DNA of 50,893 nt from Candidatus Methylomirabilota bacterium (GTDB taxonomy: Bacteria > Methylomirabilota > Methylomirabilia > Rokubacteriales > CSP1-6): the NCBI GenBank assembly GCA_036001065.1, contig DASYUQ010000087.1, positions 1-50,893 on the forward strand. Direction: 5' to 3'. Below are positions 34,329 to 48,447 of this stretch, in pieces. Below the pieces are notes generated by a model. It did not search any database and was not told where the DNA came from. It saw only the letters and a program-made list of their open reading frames with translations. Positions within the stretch are counted from its first letter, which is position 1. The number at the start of each line of letters is the position of its first letter. The translations under genes were made by a program, and so were the position numbers.

Positions 34329-34461
34329 CTCATAGGGGGCCGAGCAGCACGGTCGCGCCGTGCGTACGACTCGACGGCGAAGGGGGTGGGACGGCCCGGA
34401 AGCGGCGGTTCGGAGTCGACGAAGCGAGGTCATACCAAATCCCGAAAGAAATGGGGAGATG

Positions 34462-35226
34462 ATGAAGAAACTGGTTGCGACGATCATGAGTGTGGTGGCG
34501 TTCATCGCCTTCGTTCCGATGGCCGACGCGGCGGCACCCTGCCCGCCCGAGGTCTCGAAAGCGAAGGAGTTGCTGAGCCAGAAGTCCGGTATGGCGCGCG
34601 GGCAGGACGCCCAGGCGCCGCGGTCTCTCGCCGGCGCGCGCGGTCAAGATGCTCAGGCGCCGCGCGGGCAGGACGCGCAAGCCCCGCGTGGCCAGGATGT
34701 CCAGGCGCCGCGGTCCCTCGCCGGCGCCCGGGGTCAGGATGCTCAGGCCCCGCGCGGCCAGGATGCACAAGCCACGCGCGGTCAGGACGCTCAGGCCCCG
34801 CGCGGGCAGGATGCTCAGGCTCCGCGCGGCCAGGATGCCCAGGCTCCGCGGGGGCAGGATGCCCAGGCTCCACGGGGGCAGCGTGGTCTGGATGCTCAGG
34901 CCCAGCGCGGCCAGGATGCTCAGGCTCCGCGGGGGCAGGACGCTCAGGCCCCGCGGGGGCAGCGCGGCCTGGATCCTCAGGCGCAGCGGGGGCAGGACGC
35001 GCAAGCCCCGCGCGGGCAGGACGCCCAGGCCCCGCGTGGTCAGCGTGGGCTGGATGCTGAGGCACAGCGGGGGGCCCAGGCGCCGCGGTCGCTCGCCGGC
35101 GCAAAGCCCTCGGGCGATATCTCCAAGGCGTCGACGCTGGTCAGGGAAGCCGAAGCGGCCTGCAAGGCCGGCGACATGAAGACGGCCAAGTCGAAGGCCG
35201 AAGCCGCTATCACCACGCTTAAGTAG
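34462..35226 (+). CDS. secreted octapeptide-repeat protein (GQDAQAPR)
   Basis: A 254-residue protein that I do not recognise. The signal peptide (MKKLVATIMSVVAFIAFVP...ADA) is followed by a short segment with CPPEVSKAKELLSQKSG. Then come about 14 copies of GQDAQAPR interrupted by three GQRGLDxxAQR units and three SLAGA spacers. A helical tail (ISKASTLVREAEAACKAGDMKTAKSKAEAAITTLK region) ends the protein. GGGGAG just before ATG 34462 is a good ribosome-binding site. The middle is certainly disordered and probably extracytoplasmic. Other frames are also open across the repeat, an effect of the repeated codons. Function unknown. Confidence 0.8.
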   Translation: MKKLVATIMSVVAFIAFVPMADAAAPCPPEVSKAKELLSQKSGMARGQDAQAPRSLAGARGQDAQAPRGQDAQAPRGQDVQAPRSLAGARGQDAQAPRGQDAQATRGQDAQAPRGQDAQAPRGQDAQAPRGQDAQAPRGQRGLDAQAQRGQDAQAPRGQDAQAPRGQRGLDPQAQRGQDAQAPRGQDAQAPRGQRGLDAEAQRGAQAPRSLAGAKPSGDISKASTLVREAEAACKAGDMKTAKSKAEAAITTLK

Positions 35227-42329: not shown

Positions 42330-43493
42330 ATGCCCGATCACACGATCACCTACTTTCCCGTCGGCAATGGCGACACAATTCTCATTACTCTCGCCGACAA
42401 GACGACGTTCGTGATTGACCTTAACGTCACGGAAGCGTCGAGCGACAAGGACGATCCCTCGCGGTACGATGTCCACGGACATCTGCTGAGGGAGGCCCGT
42501 AGTGATGGCGCCGGCTATCAGCATCACGACGCCTTTCTCAATTCGCACCCCGACCAGGACCACATCCGTGGCTACAGGACGGTCTTTTACGCGGGAGATC
42601 CGACGAAGTACACCGACAAGGACAAAAGGGCCGGGCGCATTATCGCGGATGAGCTTTGGTTCGCGCCGCGCATCTTTTGGCCGTGGGCGGAGAGCGATCT
42701 CTGCGACGACGCCAAGGCCTTCAAGAAGGAGGTGGATCGGCGGATCGTTCTTTACCGAGTCGGGTCCGAGGCTCGGAACCTGCCCGGCAATCGGATTAGG
42801 ATCGTTGGCTACACCGATAACCCTGAGCTCAAAGGTCTTGAGGGCCTGGTCATCGTCCCGGGGAACGCGATTAACCTGGTGAACGGCAGCATCAAGAAAG
42901 ACTTTGCATTCTTCGTCCATGCCCCCGTCCGGAAGGATACCGATGCGGAATGGCAGAAGCGAAATGACACGAGCGTCGTCCTCCAGGCCCGGTTCGCCGT
43001 GGACGGCGTGGAGAACGCGGCCCTGGCGTTCTTCGGCGGCGACGCCGGATGCGCGATCTGGGAGGCCATCATCGATAAGAGCCGTGACGCGACGCTCGAC
43101 TGGGATCTCTTCCTTGCGCCTCACCACTGTTCGTGGACGTTCTTCAGCGAACTGCCATCCGAAGAGAACAAACCGAGCGAGAAGATCCGGGCCTTCCTCA
43201 AGAAGCACAAGCGGAAGGGCGCCTTCGTGATCGCCTCGTCGAAGCCGATCAAAGACGACGACGATGACCCGCCCCACTACCAGGCGGCTGTGCTCTACCG
43301 CAAGGAGGTCGGCGACGATCACTTCATCTGCACGTGCGAGCATCCTGATGCGAAGAAGCCGCTGCCGATCTACTTCCGTATGACGAAGAACGGGCCTCAA
43401 AAGGATGAATACTCAAAGGGAAGTCAGGTCGTCTCCTCCGCCGCGCTCGCGGCCACAGTAACGACGCCGAAGACGTATGGGTGGCGGGCCTGA
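42330..43493 (+). CDS. metallo-beta-lactamase-fold hydrolase, ComEC-like
   Basis: A 387-residue soluble protein. It starts with the typical first strands (TITYFPVGNGDTILITL, FVIDLN) and has the metal motif SHPDQDH (His73, Asp75, Asp77, His78). An acidic ligand follows in FFGGDAGCAIWE and a late histidine pair in FLAPHHCSWTFFSE. These are the features of the ComEC/Rec2-type branch of the fold. It lacks membrane segments, so it is a stand-alone enzyme of unknown substrate. It has a good ribosome-binding site and overlaps the next gene by 17 bases, so the two are coupled. In reported gene neighbourhoods of prokaryotic E1/E2/JAB proteins a hydrolase of this fold recurs, as I recall. Confidence 0.82.
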   Translation: MPDHTITYFPVGNGDTILITLADKTTFVIDLNVTEASSDKDDPSRYDVHGHLLREARSDGAGYQHHDAFLNSHPDQDHIRGYRTVFYAGDPTKYTDKDKRAGRIIADELWFAPRIFWPWAESDLCDDAKAFKKEVDRRIVLYRVGSEARNLPGNRIRIVGYTDNPELKGLEGLVIVPGNAINLVNGSIKKDFAFFVHAPVRKDTDAEWQKRNDTSVVLQARFAVDGVENAALAFFGGDAGCAIWEAIIDKSRDATLDWDLFLAPHHCSWTFFSELPSEENKPSEKIRAFLKKHKRKGAFVIASSKPIKDDDDDPPHYQAAVLYRKEVGDDHFICTCEHPDAKKPLPIYFRMTKNGPQKDEYSKGSQVVSSAALAATVTTPKTYGWRA

Positions 43494-45822
43494 GTATCAT
43501 TCCTCGGCCCGGCGGGAGCTCGCGCCCGCCGAGCTTTCGGCATCCATGCGTGCGGCGGTCGACGAGTTGCGGGCACGGTTTCCCGGAGCGGGCGTGCGCT
43601 GCCTCACGTGGAACGACGCTTATCACGCGATTGCGATGCAGGTTTTGGTCGACTTGCCATCGCGGGGGCCCGTAGACGATGTAGACATCCGCACCGTCGA
43701 GCCAATTCTGCTTCTTGTGCACCAAAAGCAGTTTCCTCGGAAAGCGCCGTTCGCTTACTCCGACCGGCTAGACTTCCCAAGCTCGAGGCTGCCACACCTC
43801 ATTCCGACCGGGCGTAAGGACTTGGCTTGCTTCTGTCTCCATCGTGGAAGCCTCGACGACTGGTTCGCGGAGCACAGCGTCACAGATCTCGTGCACCGCG
43901 TGCAGGGATGGCTCCGGGACGCGGCGAGCAACCGGCTGATCCGGGAGGAAGACCGCTTCGAGGGAACCCGCATCGACCACGCCGTCGGGATTATTGTCTA
44001 CCCTGCTCGCGACCTTACTGGTGCGGTCGAAGCCGGTTGGGCCAGTTCGGGCGGCTGCCAAGGCAGTTCATACCTTATGGCGACGCTGCTCAAGAATCAG
44101 GCCACTGGGGCATACTTTTCGGCTCGGATCTCCTATCGCATAGATTTCGTACTGCCTGAAACGCCGAGCGGGCGGCTGATCGACCTCTTCCGGAAGTACA
44201 ATCGTGTGATCGACGAGAAGGCCGATGAAGATCGGCTGCTCCTCGGCATGCTCGTTTGGGCATCAAAGACTGCGGTGACTCGATACTTCGGGACTCTTCC
44301 GGCCTCCTACGGCGACCTCCGCAACTTCTGCCGCGAAATCGACATAGACCTTGAGGCTGCAGCCGCGCCATATCGGGCCCTCGGTGCTCAGCTGCTTGGC
44401 GGTGTCCCGATGGTAGTCGCGCTCCTCCGTCCCCATGCGCTAATTGGGGAGGGGACGGCCGTAGAACTCCTCAACTTCGTGATCCTCGCATCCGAAGACC
44501 ATTCGAACGAGGACGGTACCTGGAAGGACGAGGCGCCGGTGATGGCGCTCAGTCACCGCTCTCCCCTGACCGCCTCTTTCGCTCGTGAGATGTCGCGCGA
44601 GTCGGCCGAGGCGCCGACACGTGTCGCGCTTGTGGGTTGCGGCGCCCTCGGCTCGAAGGTTAGCCTTCACCTCGCTCGGGCGGGGCATGTGAGCCAGAGC
44701 CTTGTCGACCTGGCGGATCTTGCGCCCCATCATCTCGTACGCCACGGCCTACCGCCGGAGGCCGTCGGCAAGAACAAGGCCGAAGGCCTCGCGGGCTACA
44801 TCAAGTCGATGTACCGCCTCGACGAGTCGCATGTAGATGTCCGCTCGTATCCAATATCGATTTATGACCTCCTAGAGCGCCCTGACGAATTTCTCGACAC
44901 TCCGTTTCTGATCGACGCAACGGCGTCGACCGCGGTCCTGAACGCGCTCGTCGACACGCACGACCTGCCGGCATCGCTTCACTTCTCGCGCTGCGAGATC
45001 GCGCACGCGGGGCGGTTGGGAATTCTTCTCTGGGAGGGGACGGCCCGGAATCCGAGACTCGATGATCTCCAGGCATATCTTTTTCATCTCGGACGCCACA
45101 ATAGGGCGATCGCGGAATGGCTCGCGGCGCATCGCCGGACGCAGCAAGAAGAGCGAGCCGAGGTTCTCGAAGAGATCGGGATCGGTATGAGCTGCAGTTC
45201 GACGACGATGCGTCTCTCGGACGACGTGATCGCCGTCCACGCAGCGCTAGTCGCTTCGGCCTACAAGCTCCGGGATAAGTGGGCGAGAGAGGGACTCGGC
45301 AGAATCCAGCTATCGCTCCTGGATGTGGGGAGCGGAGTGAACGCAGGTACTGAGACCCTGACAGTTCCGCCGGTCCTCATCCTCGACGCGCGCGATGCCG
45401 ACGCCTGGCAGGTGCGAATTCACGCCCATGTAGTGGATAAGCTTCGCATCTGGATGAAGCGGGCAGGGAGGAACGAGACAGGGGGGCTTCTCCTAGGCTT
45501 TGCTCACCGAAAGCGTAAAGTGATCTACATCACGGACGCCCTGCCGCCGTCGCCCGACTCGAAGGGAACTCCCTACGCCTTCAAACGCGGCGTAAAGGAC
45601 TACCCTGAGACCTTGGACGAGGTCGGAGGGAGGACCGGCAACCTCATCGGCTACGTTGGTGAGTGGCACTCGCATCCACAGGGACCCGCCGAGTTGAGCG
45701 AAAAAGACTTGCTGGCAGTGGCGGAGATCCGCGCTCATCTCGATAACGCGGGGCTGCCGACGCACATCATGGTCATTGCGCCGAAGGAAATCGCCTCCTT
45801 CGTCTTCACAACCGACTACTGA
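43477..45822 (+). CDS. E2-E1(ThiF)-JAB triple-domain protein of a ubiquitin-like conjugation system
   Basis: A 781-residue fusion. The first 165 residues look like a prokaryotic E2: hydrophobic strands, FPRKAPFAYSDRLDFPSSRL, then PHLIPTG (His107) and ACFCLHRGSL with Cys118/Cys120, one of which would be the catalytic cysteine. Residues about 170-375 are a linker domain that I cannot assign. The E1/ThiF domain follows, with VALVGCGALGSKV (Gly387, 389, 392), DLADLAPHHLVRHG, the conserved Lys in VGKNKAEGL, LIDATAS and a late cysteine in MSCSSTTMR (Cys573). The JAB peptidase (about 645-781) has Glu667 in NETGGLLLG and the full metal motif HSHPQGPAELSEKD (His731, His733, Ser741, Asp744). Activation, transfer and removal are thus all in one chain. 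It has no attached ubiquitin-like domain. Confidence 0.85.
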   Translation: MGGGPEYHSSARRELAPAELSASMRAAVDELRARFPGAGVRCLTWNDAYHAIAMQVLVDLPSRGPVDDVDIRTVEPILLLVHQKQFPRKAPFAYSDRLDFPSSRLPHLIPTGRKDLACFCLHRGSLDDWFAEHSVTDLVHRVQGWLRDAASNRLIREEDRFEGTRIDHAVGIIVYPARDLTGAVEAGWASSGGCQGSSYLMATLLKNQATGAYFSARISYRIDFVLPETPSGRLIDLFRKYNRVIDEKADEDRLLLGMLVWASKTAVTRYFGTLPASYGDLRNFCREIDIDLEAAAAPYRALGAQLLGGVPMVVALLRPHALIGEGTAVELLNFVILASEDHSNEDGTWKDEAPVMALSHRSPLTASFAREMSRESAEAPTRVALVGCGALGSKVSLHLARAGHVSQSLVDLADLAPHHLVRHGLPPEAVGKNKAEGLAGYIKSMYRLDESHVDVRSYPISIYDLLERPDEFLDTPFLIDATASTAVLNALVDTHDLPASLHFSRCEIAHAGRLGILLWEGTARNPRLDDLQAYLFHLGRHNRAIAEWLAAHRRTQQEERAEVLEEIGIGMSCSSTTMRLSDDVIAVHAALVASAYKLRDKWAREGLGRIQLSLLDVGSGVNAGTETLTVPPVLILDARDADAWQVRIHAHVVDKLRIWMKRAGRNETGGLLLGFAHRKRKVIYITDALPPSPDSKGTPYAFKRGVKDYPETLDEVGGRTGNLIGYVGEWHSHPQGPAELSEKDLLAVAEIRAHLDNAGLPTHIMVIAPKEIASFVFTTDY

Positions 45823-45857
45823 ACGGCGTCTAAGACGGAACTGCTCAATGACCGGCG

Positions 45858-46544
45858 ATGCTTGCCAAGTTTAATCTCTATGACTTCATCGGCGTTGTCG
45901 TCCCCGGGATCTTCTTCCTCTGGGCGCTCGGCGCGGTTTTGGACGTGAGCGCACTCCGCGAAGTACTACCGCTCGCCGGTGGCATCGCGGAAACGTCAGT
46001 AGTCATTGTCGTCGGATACGTAGTAGGTCTGTTGCTCCAAGGTATCAGTCAGCAGTTCACGGAGAGATTGTTGGTCTGGTGGTGGGGCGGCTTCCCGTCC
46101 GCGCGCTGGCTACTGCCCGAGGATCAACGGTTCACCAAGCGCTACCGCATCGAGGTTACGACCTCCTTACGCGCGAGATTTCAGATCAACCTTGCGGAGG
46201 AACGGCTCGGCGATATCCCCCGACCCGAGGCGCTCAAGCGAGCCCAGGAGATCTTCTATCGCTGCTATCGGGCTGTTGAGAAAGCGAGCGAGCTGCCCCA
46301 GACATTCAATGCGCAGTATGGCCTCTTTCGCGCCCTCCTCACAACGTTCGTGCTGCTCCTCATCGTGAGCTCATCGCGACTTGCCCTGACCTACAGGGAC
46401 GGGGCATTAAGTGCGCCAGGCTATCTTGCACTCGGCGTTGCCATCGTAGGCACTGTGGTGAGCTACTGGAGGGTGACGAAACGAGGCGAGGATTTCGCGA
46501 AAGCGGTCTACGACGTTTTGCTCGCGAGTGAGCCGCAACGATAA
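45858..46544 (+). CDS. multi-pass membrane protein linked to the E2-E1-JAB cluster
   Basis: A 228-residue protein with four predicted membrane helices: about 8-28 (DFIGVVVPGIFFLWALGAV), 40-65, 152-172 and 182-205. A charged cytoplasmic or periplasmic loop of about 85 residues lies between the second and third. The N-terminus FNLYDFIGVVVPG resembles small membrane proteins I associate with defence islands, but I cannot name the family. It begins 35 bases after the fusion gene on the same strand. Membrane proteins beside such systems often act as effectors or targets, so that role is the leading guess. Confidence 0.65.
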   Translation: MLAKFNLYDFIGVVVPGIFFLWALGAVLDVSALREVLPLAGGIAETSVVIVVGYVVGLLLQGISQQFTERLLVWWWGGFPSARWLLPEDQRFTKRYRIEVTTSLRARFQINLAEERLGDIPRPEALKRAQEIFYRCYRAVEKASELPQTFNAQYGLFRALLTTFVLLLIVSSSRLALTYRDGALSAPGYLALGVAIVGTVVSYWRVTKRGEDFAKAVYDVLLASEPQR

Positions 46545-46735: not shown

Positions 46736-47368
46736 TCACTCGATGAACAATCGTCTAAACCAAGCCACAAAACCAATCGCCTCAGCCGCATCGTGCGCAA
46801 AAATCCGAGCCCGCAAAGCAGTTCCGAAGGGAAGACCTGGCGGATCCTGCCAGGCTAGCCAGGCATGTATCGCGCTCTTCTGTTCGTCTGTCGAGTTACA
46901 ACCTTGCGTCAGCGCCTCATGAGTTGCGCGCCTAGCGAAATCCCAGCAGCGGTCATCCACCGGTACGAGGCGTTGGAGAAATTCTTCCAGTCGTCCCCCC
47001 GCGCTATTGTCTGGCATGAGCCAGACCCCTACGCGCGATGTGGGTCTGATACCTTGCACAATAGTGCCTTGCAGAACCGGCGTCGCAGGAAGTACGACTC
47101 CGACCGGAGCAAGACCATTCCGCAAGCTGCTCCACCGGGCTTCAATGTCTACATCCGCGTCCAGCACGATGCCGACGCGCTCGTACCGTCCCTTAGCAGT
47201 GACGGGTGCGGACTCCAGCAGTTCGCCGACCCCTCCAGTCTCGTCGATGTACGGAGCGGCTTCCGCGTCCCAATTGAAGCCATGCCGCACCATAAGATGG
47301 ACAATTGAATGAAGATCGTCGGTACCCTCCACTAGGAGACGAGACAGACTCTTCTTGGAGGGAGGCAT
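46736..47368 (-). CDS. TOPRIM-like protein, DUF3226 type
   Basis: A 210-residue protein. The N-terminus LLVEGTDDLHSIVHLM carries the TOPRIM glutamate (Glu14), and YERVGIVLDADVDIE carries the DxD pair (Asp70, Asp72). The rest is helical with a GVWLMPDNSAGGRLEEFL segment typical of DUF3226. TOPRIM domains in such proteins are usually nucleases. It overlaps the ATPase gene by 1 base as TAATG, so they are cotranslated and most likely form one complex. Confidence 0.75.
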   Translation of the reverse strand: MPPSKKSLSRLLVEGTDDLHSIVHLMVRHGFNWDAEAAPYIDETGGVGELLESAPVTAKGRYERVGIVLDADVDIEARWSSLRNGLAPVGVVLPATPVLQGTIVQGIRPTSRVGVWLMPDNSAGGRLEEFLQRLVPVDDRCWDFARRATHEALTQGCNSTDEQKSAIHAWLAWQDPPGLPFGTALRARIFAHDAAEAIGFVAWFRRLFIE

Positions 47369-48447
47369 TAGCGCATTTCGACGTGACGCCTCGCTGCGAC
47401 AGTGATCTCCTGCACACTATAGCGAACTGTGTGATCAAGATCACGCTCTATCCGATGAAGTGCTACATCGATCTCGCTAATCTGCCGGTCTCCGTGAACA
47501 GAAGCAAGCGAGTTGACGCAGTCCAAGCTGTGAGTTGTTGCGAATACTTGCACATCTAATGCTTTGGCGGTTTCGATGACCAGGCGCCACATATTCTCCA
47601 TGACGGTAAAGTGAAGACCAGTGTCAATCTCGTCTACAAACAAGTAACCACCTCGAGCGGCAATTAGGTTCAGTGATAGCGCAAGCAGGCGCTTCAAGCC
47701 GTCGCCAACGTTTCCGATCGGCAGCCTTTGGTCGGAGTCCCTAAGCTTCAGAAAGACCCCGCGCCGAAGGCGTCGTTCTCCGAGAAACGCTATTCGCTCT
47801 ATGGACGGTTCGATGATCTGCAGTGCTTCAACAACTTTATTCTCCTCGGGCTTAAGAGCTATGCTGTCCCACAAGGCATTTAGGCGAGGCGTTTCTATCG
47901 ACTCGGGACGTAGAAAATTTGCGGCCGCAGAGCTCTCCACAGGTGCAAGCGAAATCCTCCGACGGGCTTCCGAAGAGATGGCACCAGTGGGAAGCAGCGG
48001 CAAAACGACAGGTCCGGGACTCGAACCGCTTAGGAAACTGATCGCTAGCGACGGGCCAAGCTGTGCAAGACCGAAAAGGTCGGGCTCTGCCACGCTACGC
48101 TCACTCGTAACTTCAATGATCTGGCACGTTACCGACTTAGGACCTGGCGTCCCGGAAATGGAGAAATGGGCGCCCTCAATCACGTGGCCGAAAAATTGAT
48201 GAGAAATGGCCAGATCACGCCGAACCATCTGTCTTTCTTCTTCATCGATCGATGGAGCCTCTTCGCCACGACGCATCGAGCTGCGAAACAGTGCCCATGC
48301 GTTACCGAGAACCAACAGCTCAATCGCGTCGAGAAGCGAGGTTTTACCCGCGTTATTCTTCCCGACAAATAAATTGACGCGGCTCAGGCCATCGACTCTA
48401 AGTTTTCTGAACGTTCGATAAGCGGTCAGCATCACGCTAGAAAGCAT
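47368..48447 (-). CDS. AAA/ABC-type ATPase, partner of the TOPRIM protein
   Basis: A 359-residue ATPase of the RecF/OLD type. It starts MLSSVMLTAYRTFRKLRVDGL and has Walker A GKNNAGKTS (29-37), a signature-like GNVGDGLKRLL (246-256), Walker B GYLFVDEIDTGLH (267-279) and an H-loop in ATTHSLDCV. It lacks its own TOPRIM domain, which is encoded by the next gene. This split arrangement is like PARIS (AriA with AriB) and class 2 OLD/Gabija systems, which block phage. The start at 48447 agrees with the family N-terminus. Anti-phage function is inference. Confidence 0.82.
   Translation of the reverse strand: MLSSVMLTAYRTFRKLRVDGLSRVNLFVGKNNAGKTSLLDAIELLVLGNAWALFRSSMRRGEEAPSIDEEERQMVRRDLAISHQFFGHVIEGAHFSISGTPGPKSVTCQIIEVTSERSVAEPDLFGLAQLGPSLAISFLSGSSPGPVVLPLLPTGAISSEARRRISLAPVESSAAANFLRPESIETPRLNALWDSIALKPEENKVVEALQIIEPSIERIAFLGERRLRRGVFLKLRDSDQRLPIGNVGDGLKRLLALSLNLIAARGGYLFVDEIDTGLHFTVMENMWRLVIETAKALDVQVFATTHSLDCVNSLASVHGDRQISEIDVALHRIERDLDHTVRYSVQEITVAARRHVEMR

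Follow-up and report, generated by a model that had tools for sequence, protein, structure and literature searches.

Two overlapping genes within the window (the whole stretch of 50,893 nucleotides of contig DASYUQ010000087.1 from a Candidatus Methylomirabilota bacterium) encode an ABC-type ATPase and a small protein of the DUF3226 family, and constitute a real, well conserved and very probably defensive module that is already catalogued as a candidate. In PADLOC-DB 2.0, the best model for the ATPase is PDC-M38A (2.5e-73, 246 bits), followed by AbiLi (PDLC02336) at 170 bits, and the DUF3226 protein is matched by PDC-M38B over residues 9-208 (5.2e-39), as are all 83 of its homologues. By these profile models the pair is the PADLOC phage defence candidate PDC-M38 (PDC-M38A + PDC-M38B), and nothing was found that separates it from PDC-M38. 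An earlier note on this DNA had proposed that the pair might be a distinct subtype, a reading to be refuted by an existing defence profile naming exactly this pair. The distinction from PARIS stood (DUF4435 is absent), whereas the pair is not unrecognised: PDC-M38A/B are already present in PADLOC-DB 2.0 and fit both proteins best, the outcome that the note had set as refuting. PDC-M38 is a bioinformatic candidate label, and in a literature search of partial coverage, which does not prove absence, neither DUF3226 nor PDC-M38 was named in any paper, and no experimental study of the candidate was found.

Locations of the two genes, of their conserved residues and of the neighbouring operon are presented in Table 1. 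The coordinates and the overlap of the two genes as TAATG, both described previously, were confirmed. No sigma-70-like promoter was found close to the pair, terminator-like matches were mostly intragenic and near chance level, and no tRNA genes or Rfam families were found within the window. GC content drops from ~70% to ~60% in the stretch around the pair. A tandem (RGQDAQAP)-like repeat protein is encoded at 34360-35226 (+) of the window.

Table 1. Features of the ATPase/DUF3226 pair and of its convergent neighbour (positions are those of the window; residue conservation is counted among 80 ATPase and 83 DUF3226 homologues).
Feature	Position	Strand	Basis
ABC-type ATPase (AAA_21/AAA_15, Rad50/SMC-head-like), PADLOC PDC-M38A	47368..48447	-	ORF, 359 aa
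DUF3226 (PF11536) protein, predicted TOPRIM fold, PADLOC PDC-M38B	46736..47368	-	ORF, 210 aa
TAATG stop/start overlap, ATPase to DUF3226 gene	47366..47370	-	read directly from sequence
Walker A GKNNAGKT, ATPase residues 29-36	48340..48363	-	G29 and K35 in 80/80
Walker B YLFVDE, ATPase residues 268-273	47629..47646	-	D272 and E273 in 80/80
H306, H-loop position of ATPase	47530..47532	-	80/80
E14, TOPRIM motif 1 glutamate	47327..47329	-	83/83
D18, probable counterpart of BpOLD E404 (metal B)	47315..47317	-	83/83; motif spacing compared with PMC6755086
D70-A71-D72, TOPRIM DxD motif	47153..47161	-	D70 83/83; position 72 D in 68, N in 15
E128, likely counterpart of BpOLD E508 (metal B)	46985..46987	-	81/83; start of helix 127-132
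K164, likely counterpart of BpOLD K562	46877..46879	-	82/83; inside helix 162-172
6A-MBL anti-phage operon and Csx27-like protein, not part of pair	42330..46544	+	convergent neighbour
MBL-fold protein of 6A-MBL	42330-43493	+	NCBIfam NF058524, 349 bits, above cut-off
E2-E1-JAB fusion of 6A-MBL, overlaps MBL gene	43477-45822	+	NCBIfam NF058523, 502 bits, above cut-off
Csx27-like predicted membrane protein, 228 aa	45858-46544	+	PADLOC 1e-8; NCBIfam 1e-6, below cut-off

The DUF3226 domain (PF11536, 3e-54) covers residues 10-208 of the 210-residue protein. Modelling with AlphaFold2, using the 83 homologues, resulted in a pLDDT of 95.7 and a pTM of 0.90, and the top five Foldseek matches of this model are C-terminal regions of class 2 OLD proteins (E ~0.01-0.03, probability 0.92-0.99). 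In VIA-align, the model was superposed on 2p62, a DUF3226-like hypothetical protein of Pyrococcus whose PDB entry states no function (Z 12.2, rmsd 3.6, 189 residues aligned), and on class 2 OLD nuclease domains at Z 9.7-10.6; values for 6nk8 were Z 10.6, rmsd 5.2 and 169 aligned, and for the Thermus OLD structure 6p74 Z 10.2, rmsd 3.1 and 133 aligned. Scores against retron Eco2 (Z 7.3) and AriB (Z 6.8) are both at noise level. According to the model, the DUF3226 protein is a TOPRIM-fold protein; the fold had been set beforehand as one of two refutation tests, and the assignment stands. Against the PDB, a single DUF3226 sequence matched only low-complexity-like repeats, and for the DUF3226 profile the matches to AriB and to a TOPRIM protein resembling RNase M5 were no better than E 0.15-0.4. 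The AriB match of the profile, aligned at LLVEGxxD, is not significant (E 0.3 to 0.4), and the AriB model is matched by one of the 83 homologues at E<=0.001.

A two-metal mechanism has been shown for BpOLD with the residues E400, E404, D455, D457, E508 and K562 (PMC6755086). Residues E14, D18, D70, D72, E128 and K164 of the DUF3226 protein follow these in order and spacing, the pairing of E128 with E508 and of K164 with K562 being based on order and helix position and not on residue-by-residue superposition. T506 of BpOLD has no conserved counterpart among the DUF3226 homologues. The choice of Glu14 and Asp70/72 as key residues was upheld, with Asn at position 72 in a minority of homologues (Table 1), and D18, E128 and K164 are to be added to them. 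The DUF3226 protein appears to carry a near-complete two-metal nuclease active site and is a predicted nuclease.

The ATPase scores above the Pfam cut-offs for AAA_21 (5e-22; 80 bits, cut-off 27) and AAA_15 (1e-21; 78 bits, cut-off 32.1). Residues K35 of the Walker A motif, D272 and E273 of the Walker B motif, H306 and D309 are unchanged in all 80 ATPase homologues. As the earlier note had supposed, key residues are thus kept in both proteins, being invariant or near-invariant across the homologues. The predicted structure (pLDDT 91.1) matches the heads of PtuA, SMC, Rad50, AriA and GajA at tied scores of Z 16-18 (AriA Z 16-17), and for the model such tied matches show an ABC/SMC-type head and nothing narrower. 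Loss of ATP hydrolysis has been reported for GajA (PMC12796447). In contrast, the catalytic glutamate E273 is invariant here and the motifs for ATP binding and hydrolysis are intact, and therefore ATP hydrolysis by the ATPase is plausible.

The source genome (4.46 Mb, 239 contigs) contains one copy of the pair, and a DUF3226 match is present in two of the 99 nearest related genomes; this patchy presence marks the pair as accessory. Scanning one genome per species confirmed at least 568 relatives. We analysed 93 loci, namely the best 80 of these relatives, five loci on viral contigs, six on plasmids, one from a relative genome and the window copy; the phyla represented include Planctomycetota, Cyanobacteria, Bacteroidota, Chloroflexota and Acidobacteriota. 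Without exception in the 93 loci, the gene directly upstream of DUF3226 encodes an ATPase of this one family, and the two are separate genes with no true fusion. Junctions could be measured in 89 loci, where 37 are of the TAATG type and 17 are 4-base overlaps, and in all but two the DUF3226 start is no more than 7 bases away from the stop of the ATPase gene. Evolutionary distances of the two proteins are correlated at r = 0.84 over 79 loci (maximum of 2000 permutations, 0.13), a value which, for such sequence-derived distances, shows joint inheritance and not contact and to which shared organismal history could supply part. The ATPase and DUF3226 genes are a tightly linked unit and their linkage is near-obligatory. 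Neither protein was matched in annotated phage genomes.

One apparent ATPase-DUF3226 fusion (L016) was ruled out, as the frameshift lies inside the ATPase and the locus still has METR-stop at TAATG. Another locus (L020, 4114 bases) carries, downstream of its intact pair, a second ATPase-DUF3226 copy that is broken up into several short frames. The acidobacterial MAG G106, from which locus L041 comes, has seven DUF3226 matches, several of them partial, suggesting repeated acquisition and decay. Of 14 control genomes, that of Methanocaldococcus jannaschii alone has matches to both DUF3226 and PDLC02336; judged from these matches, the pair probably extends to archaea.

In the window, the pair lies tail to tail with a complete 6A-MBL operon, 36 bases after which the Csx27-like gene begins; the Csx27-like protein may belong to that operon as a third component. 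Around 66 homologous loci, 83 and 97 neighbouring ORFs match 72 and 38 PADLOC families, respectively (E<=1e-25), including BrxC, DrmA, DrmD, HmaA, HmaB, MTase_III (type III methyltransferase), NsnA, SoFic and ShosA, compared with three families matched by 92 control ORFs that were taken at fixed, arbitrary places from nine of these genomes. PADLOC families overlap and the control is small, and the difference should be read as an enrichment signal and not as a count of independent genes. BREX, DISARM, Hma and restriction genes are over-represented among the neighbours of the pair.

The pair is also the main cargo of tiny plasmids, mobile and self-contained. The Klebsiella ColRNAI plasmid L094 (NZ_CP076014.1, 4.1 kb) encodes an HTH protein, Rop and the pair; a Citrobacter ColE10 plasmid of 6.4 kb encodes replication and mobilisation functions, a GTPase-annotated gene and the pair; an E. 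coli plasmid of 3.8 kb and Acinetobacter plasmids of 9.7-40 kb, small ones of 9.7-13 kb among them, carry it as well. The ATPase is matched in 138 Klebsiella plasmid records (139 at a looser limit), the matches listed being mostly of ~4.17 kb, and the DUF3226 gene is present in both Klebsiella records inspected in detail (L006 and L094). On the ~4.1-kb ColRNAI plasmids, a diverged ATPase and DUF3226 pair is the only evident cargo.

It is probable, in our judgement, that the pair is a self-contained mobile anti-phage module working like PARIS and other ABC-ATPase/TOPRIM (OLD-type) systems, whether split or fused. We infer its defence activity, trigger and substrate along the following lines, which seem to us the most likely. 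An oligomer of the ATPase would bind the DUF3226 protein and hold it inactive or gate it, until a phage-induced signal or a change in nucleotide state releases or activates the nuclease. The nuclease would then use two Mg2+ ions to cleave DNA or RNA, and the cleavage would halt phage replication or the growth of the infected cell. OLD and Gabija systems cleave DNA under ATP control. In PARIS, an AriA hexamer sequesters AriB, whose release is followed by dimerisation and cleavage of tRNA-Lys (PMC11455837). PARIS and OLD/Gabija bracket the mechanistic possibilities for the pair, its architecture favouring the former and its active site slightly favouring the latter.

A DNA-targeting mode as in OLD and Gabija, where a constitutive ATPase-nuclease complex nicks or degrades phage DNA and ATP serves as the off-switch, with no release and no tRNA cleavage, is a serious possibility although we would not give it even chances. 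The nearest structures of known function are the C-terminal domains of class 2 OLD (GajA-type) proteins, at Z ~10 as against 6.8 for AriB, and E128 and K164 probably correspond to residues on which class 2 OLD proteins depend for cleaving DNA processively. However, the pair shares its two-gene layout with PARIS, and two-metal TOPRIM sites also serve RNases such as AriB and RNase M5 (PMC12409363), so that the substrate cannot be read from the active site. Slightly more doubtful, to our mind, is a release mode as in PARIS, in which the ATPase is a proteinaceous antitoxin sequestering a toxic nuclease, a phage protein triggers the release, and tRNA is cut with arrest of growth. Gene order and split as in AriA/AriB, the match of the ATPase model to AriA, the appearance of AriB among the PDB nuclease effectors touched by the DUF3226 profile, and the restriction and BREX neighbours, as predicted for a guard of restriction, are all consistent with it. 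On the other hand, the sequence match to AriB is not significant and is confined to a single homologue at the stricter limit, and ATPase matches of Z 16-18 are common to many SMC/Rad50-like heads.

Two further readings place the pair outside phage defence. The abundance of the pair on small ColE1-like plasmids (counting the 138 Klebsiella records that match the ATPase) could point to a plasmid maintenance or anti-plasmid module, and the anti-plasmid system Wadjet likewise combines an SMC-like ATPase with a TOPRIM nuclease. Wadjet needs JetA, JetB and JetC, but these partners do not adjoin the pairs, and most sampled copies lie on chromosomal contigs next to genes of phage defence; this reading seems improbable. 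Least probable of all, and already disfavoured, is a housekeeping DNA-repair pair of a RecF/Rad50-like ATPase and a TOPRIM processing nuclease. Its ATPase fold is indeed RecF/Rad50/SMC-like, and in an archaeon an ATPase of the OLD family acts in the cell cycle (PMC12796447), but the patchy distribution (2/99 relatives), plasmid carriage and defence neighbours are ill-suited to a core function.

If the anti-phage module that we favour is active, it would be a further branch, as yet unexplored by experiment, of the ATPase/TOPRIM systems to which PARIS and Gabija belong, and one that numbers hundreds of copies in various bacterial phyla (at least 568 confirmed). Comparison of its substrate with those of AriB (tRNA) and GajA (DNA) could then reveal what decides substrate choice in TOPRIM effectors.

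The architecture of the pair was previously likened to PARIS and OLD systems, with a nuclease of the DUF3226 and not the DUF4435 type, and our searches agree with this. PARIS (AriA + AriB, class 4 OLD) resembles the pair in that a TOPRIM gene of its own follows the gene for an ABC ATPase, and both folds are shared. The AAA_15 or AAA_21 ATPase above cut-off that PARIS calls for is present in the pair. The PARIS detection rule demands a DUF4435 (PF14491) partner at >=27 bits (PMC9122126). No DUF4435 was found in the small protein, DUF3226 being the only Pfam family at E<=1, and therefore the pair is not PARIS by the published rule. The AriB models in PADLOC likewise gave no match to the DUF3226 protein at E<=1; the PADLOC AriAB models PDLC02981/PDLC02982 are unfit for collecting AriB, as one matches any ABC ATPase head and the other nothing. 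The ATPase of the window scores 95 bits with AriA as against 246 with PDC-M38A, the PARIS nuclease has ~300-316 residues compared with 210 in the DUF3226 protein, and PARIS has fused forms whereas the DUF3226 pairs have none in 93 loci.

Class 1 and class 2 OLD proteins (GajA) share with the DUF3226 protein the TOPRIM domain with an active site of E...E/D and DxD, probably completed by E and K, and are its best structural matches of known function. However, OLD classes 1-3 have ATPase and TOPRIM in one polypeptide while the pair consists of two genes, and Gabija has the helicase GajB, whereas no helicase adjoins the pair in the window.

AbiL (AbiLi + AbiLii) and RloA-RloB resemble the pair in being two genes for an ATPase and a small nuclease-like protein. 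The AbiLi model PDLC02336 matches the ATPase of the window (2e-50), but it is non-discriminating, since it also marks other DUF3226-linked ATPases, and pipelines may therefore mislabel half of the pair as AbiL. The ATPases marked by PDLC02336 are DUF3226-linked ones (L071, 228 bits; L094, 198 bits; G104) and not the RloA-type ATPases beside AbiLii. AbiLii loci of Gammaproteobacteria have RloB (PF13707) or another short family, together with a different ATPase of the PDLC02335 type. The AbiLii models gave no match to the DUF3226 protein at E<=1, and similarity of DUF3226 to RloB was not significant (hhalign probability 0.3%). By these profile comparisons, the pair is not an AbiL of the RloAB type. 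We tentatively suggest, while holding the opposite to be somewhat likelier, that split ATPase/TOPRIM immunity has in the DUF3226 pairs a lineage of its own, distinct from PARIS and from RloAB. Its nuclease would have kept a two-metal site of the OLD type, and its two genes would be enough for immunity and compact enough to make up most of the cargo of 4-kb plasmids that circulate in Klebsiella and E. coli.
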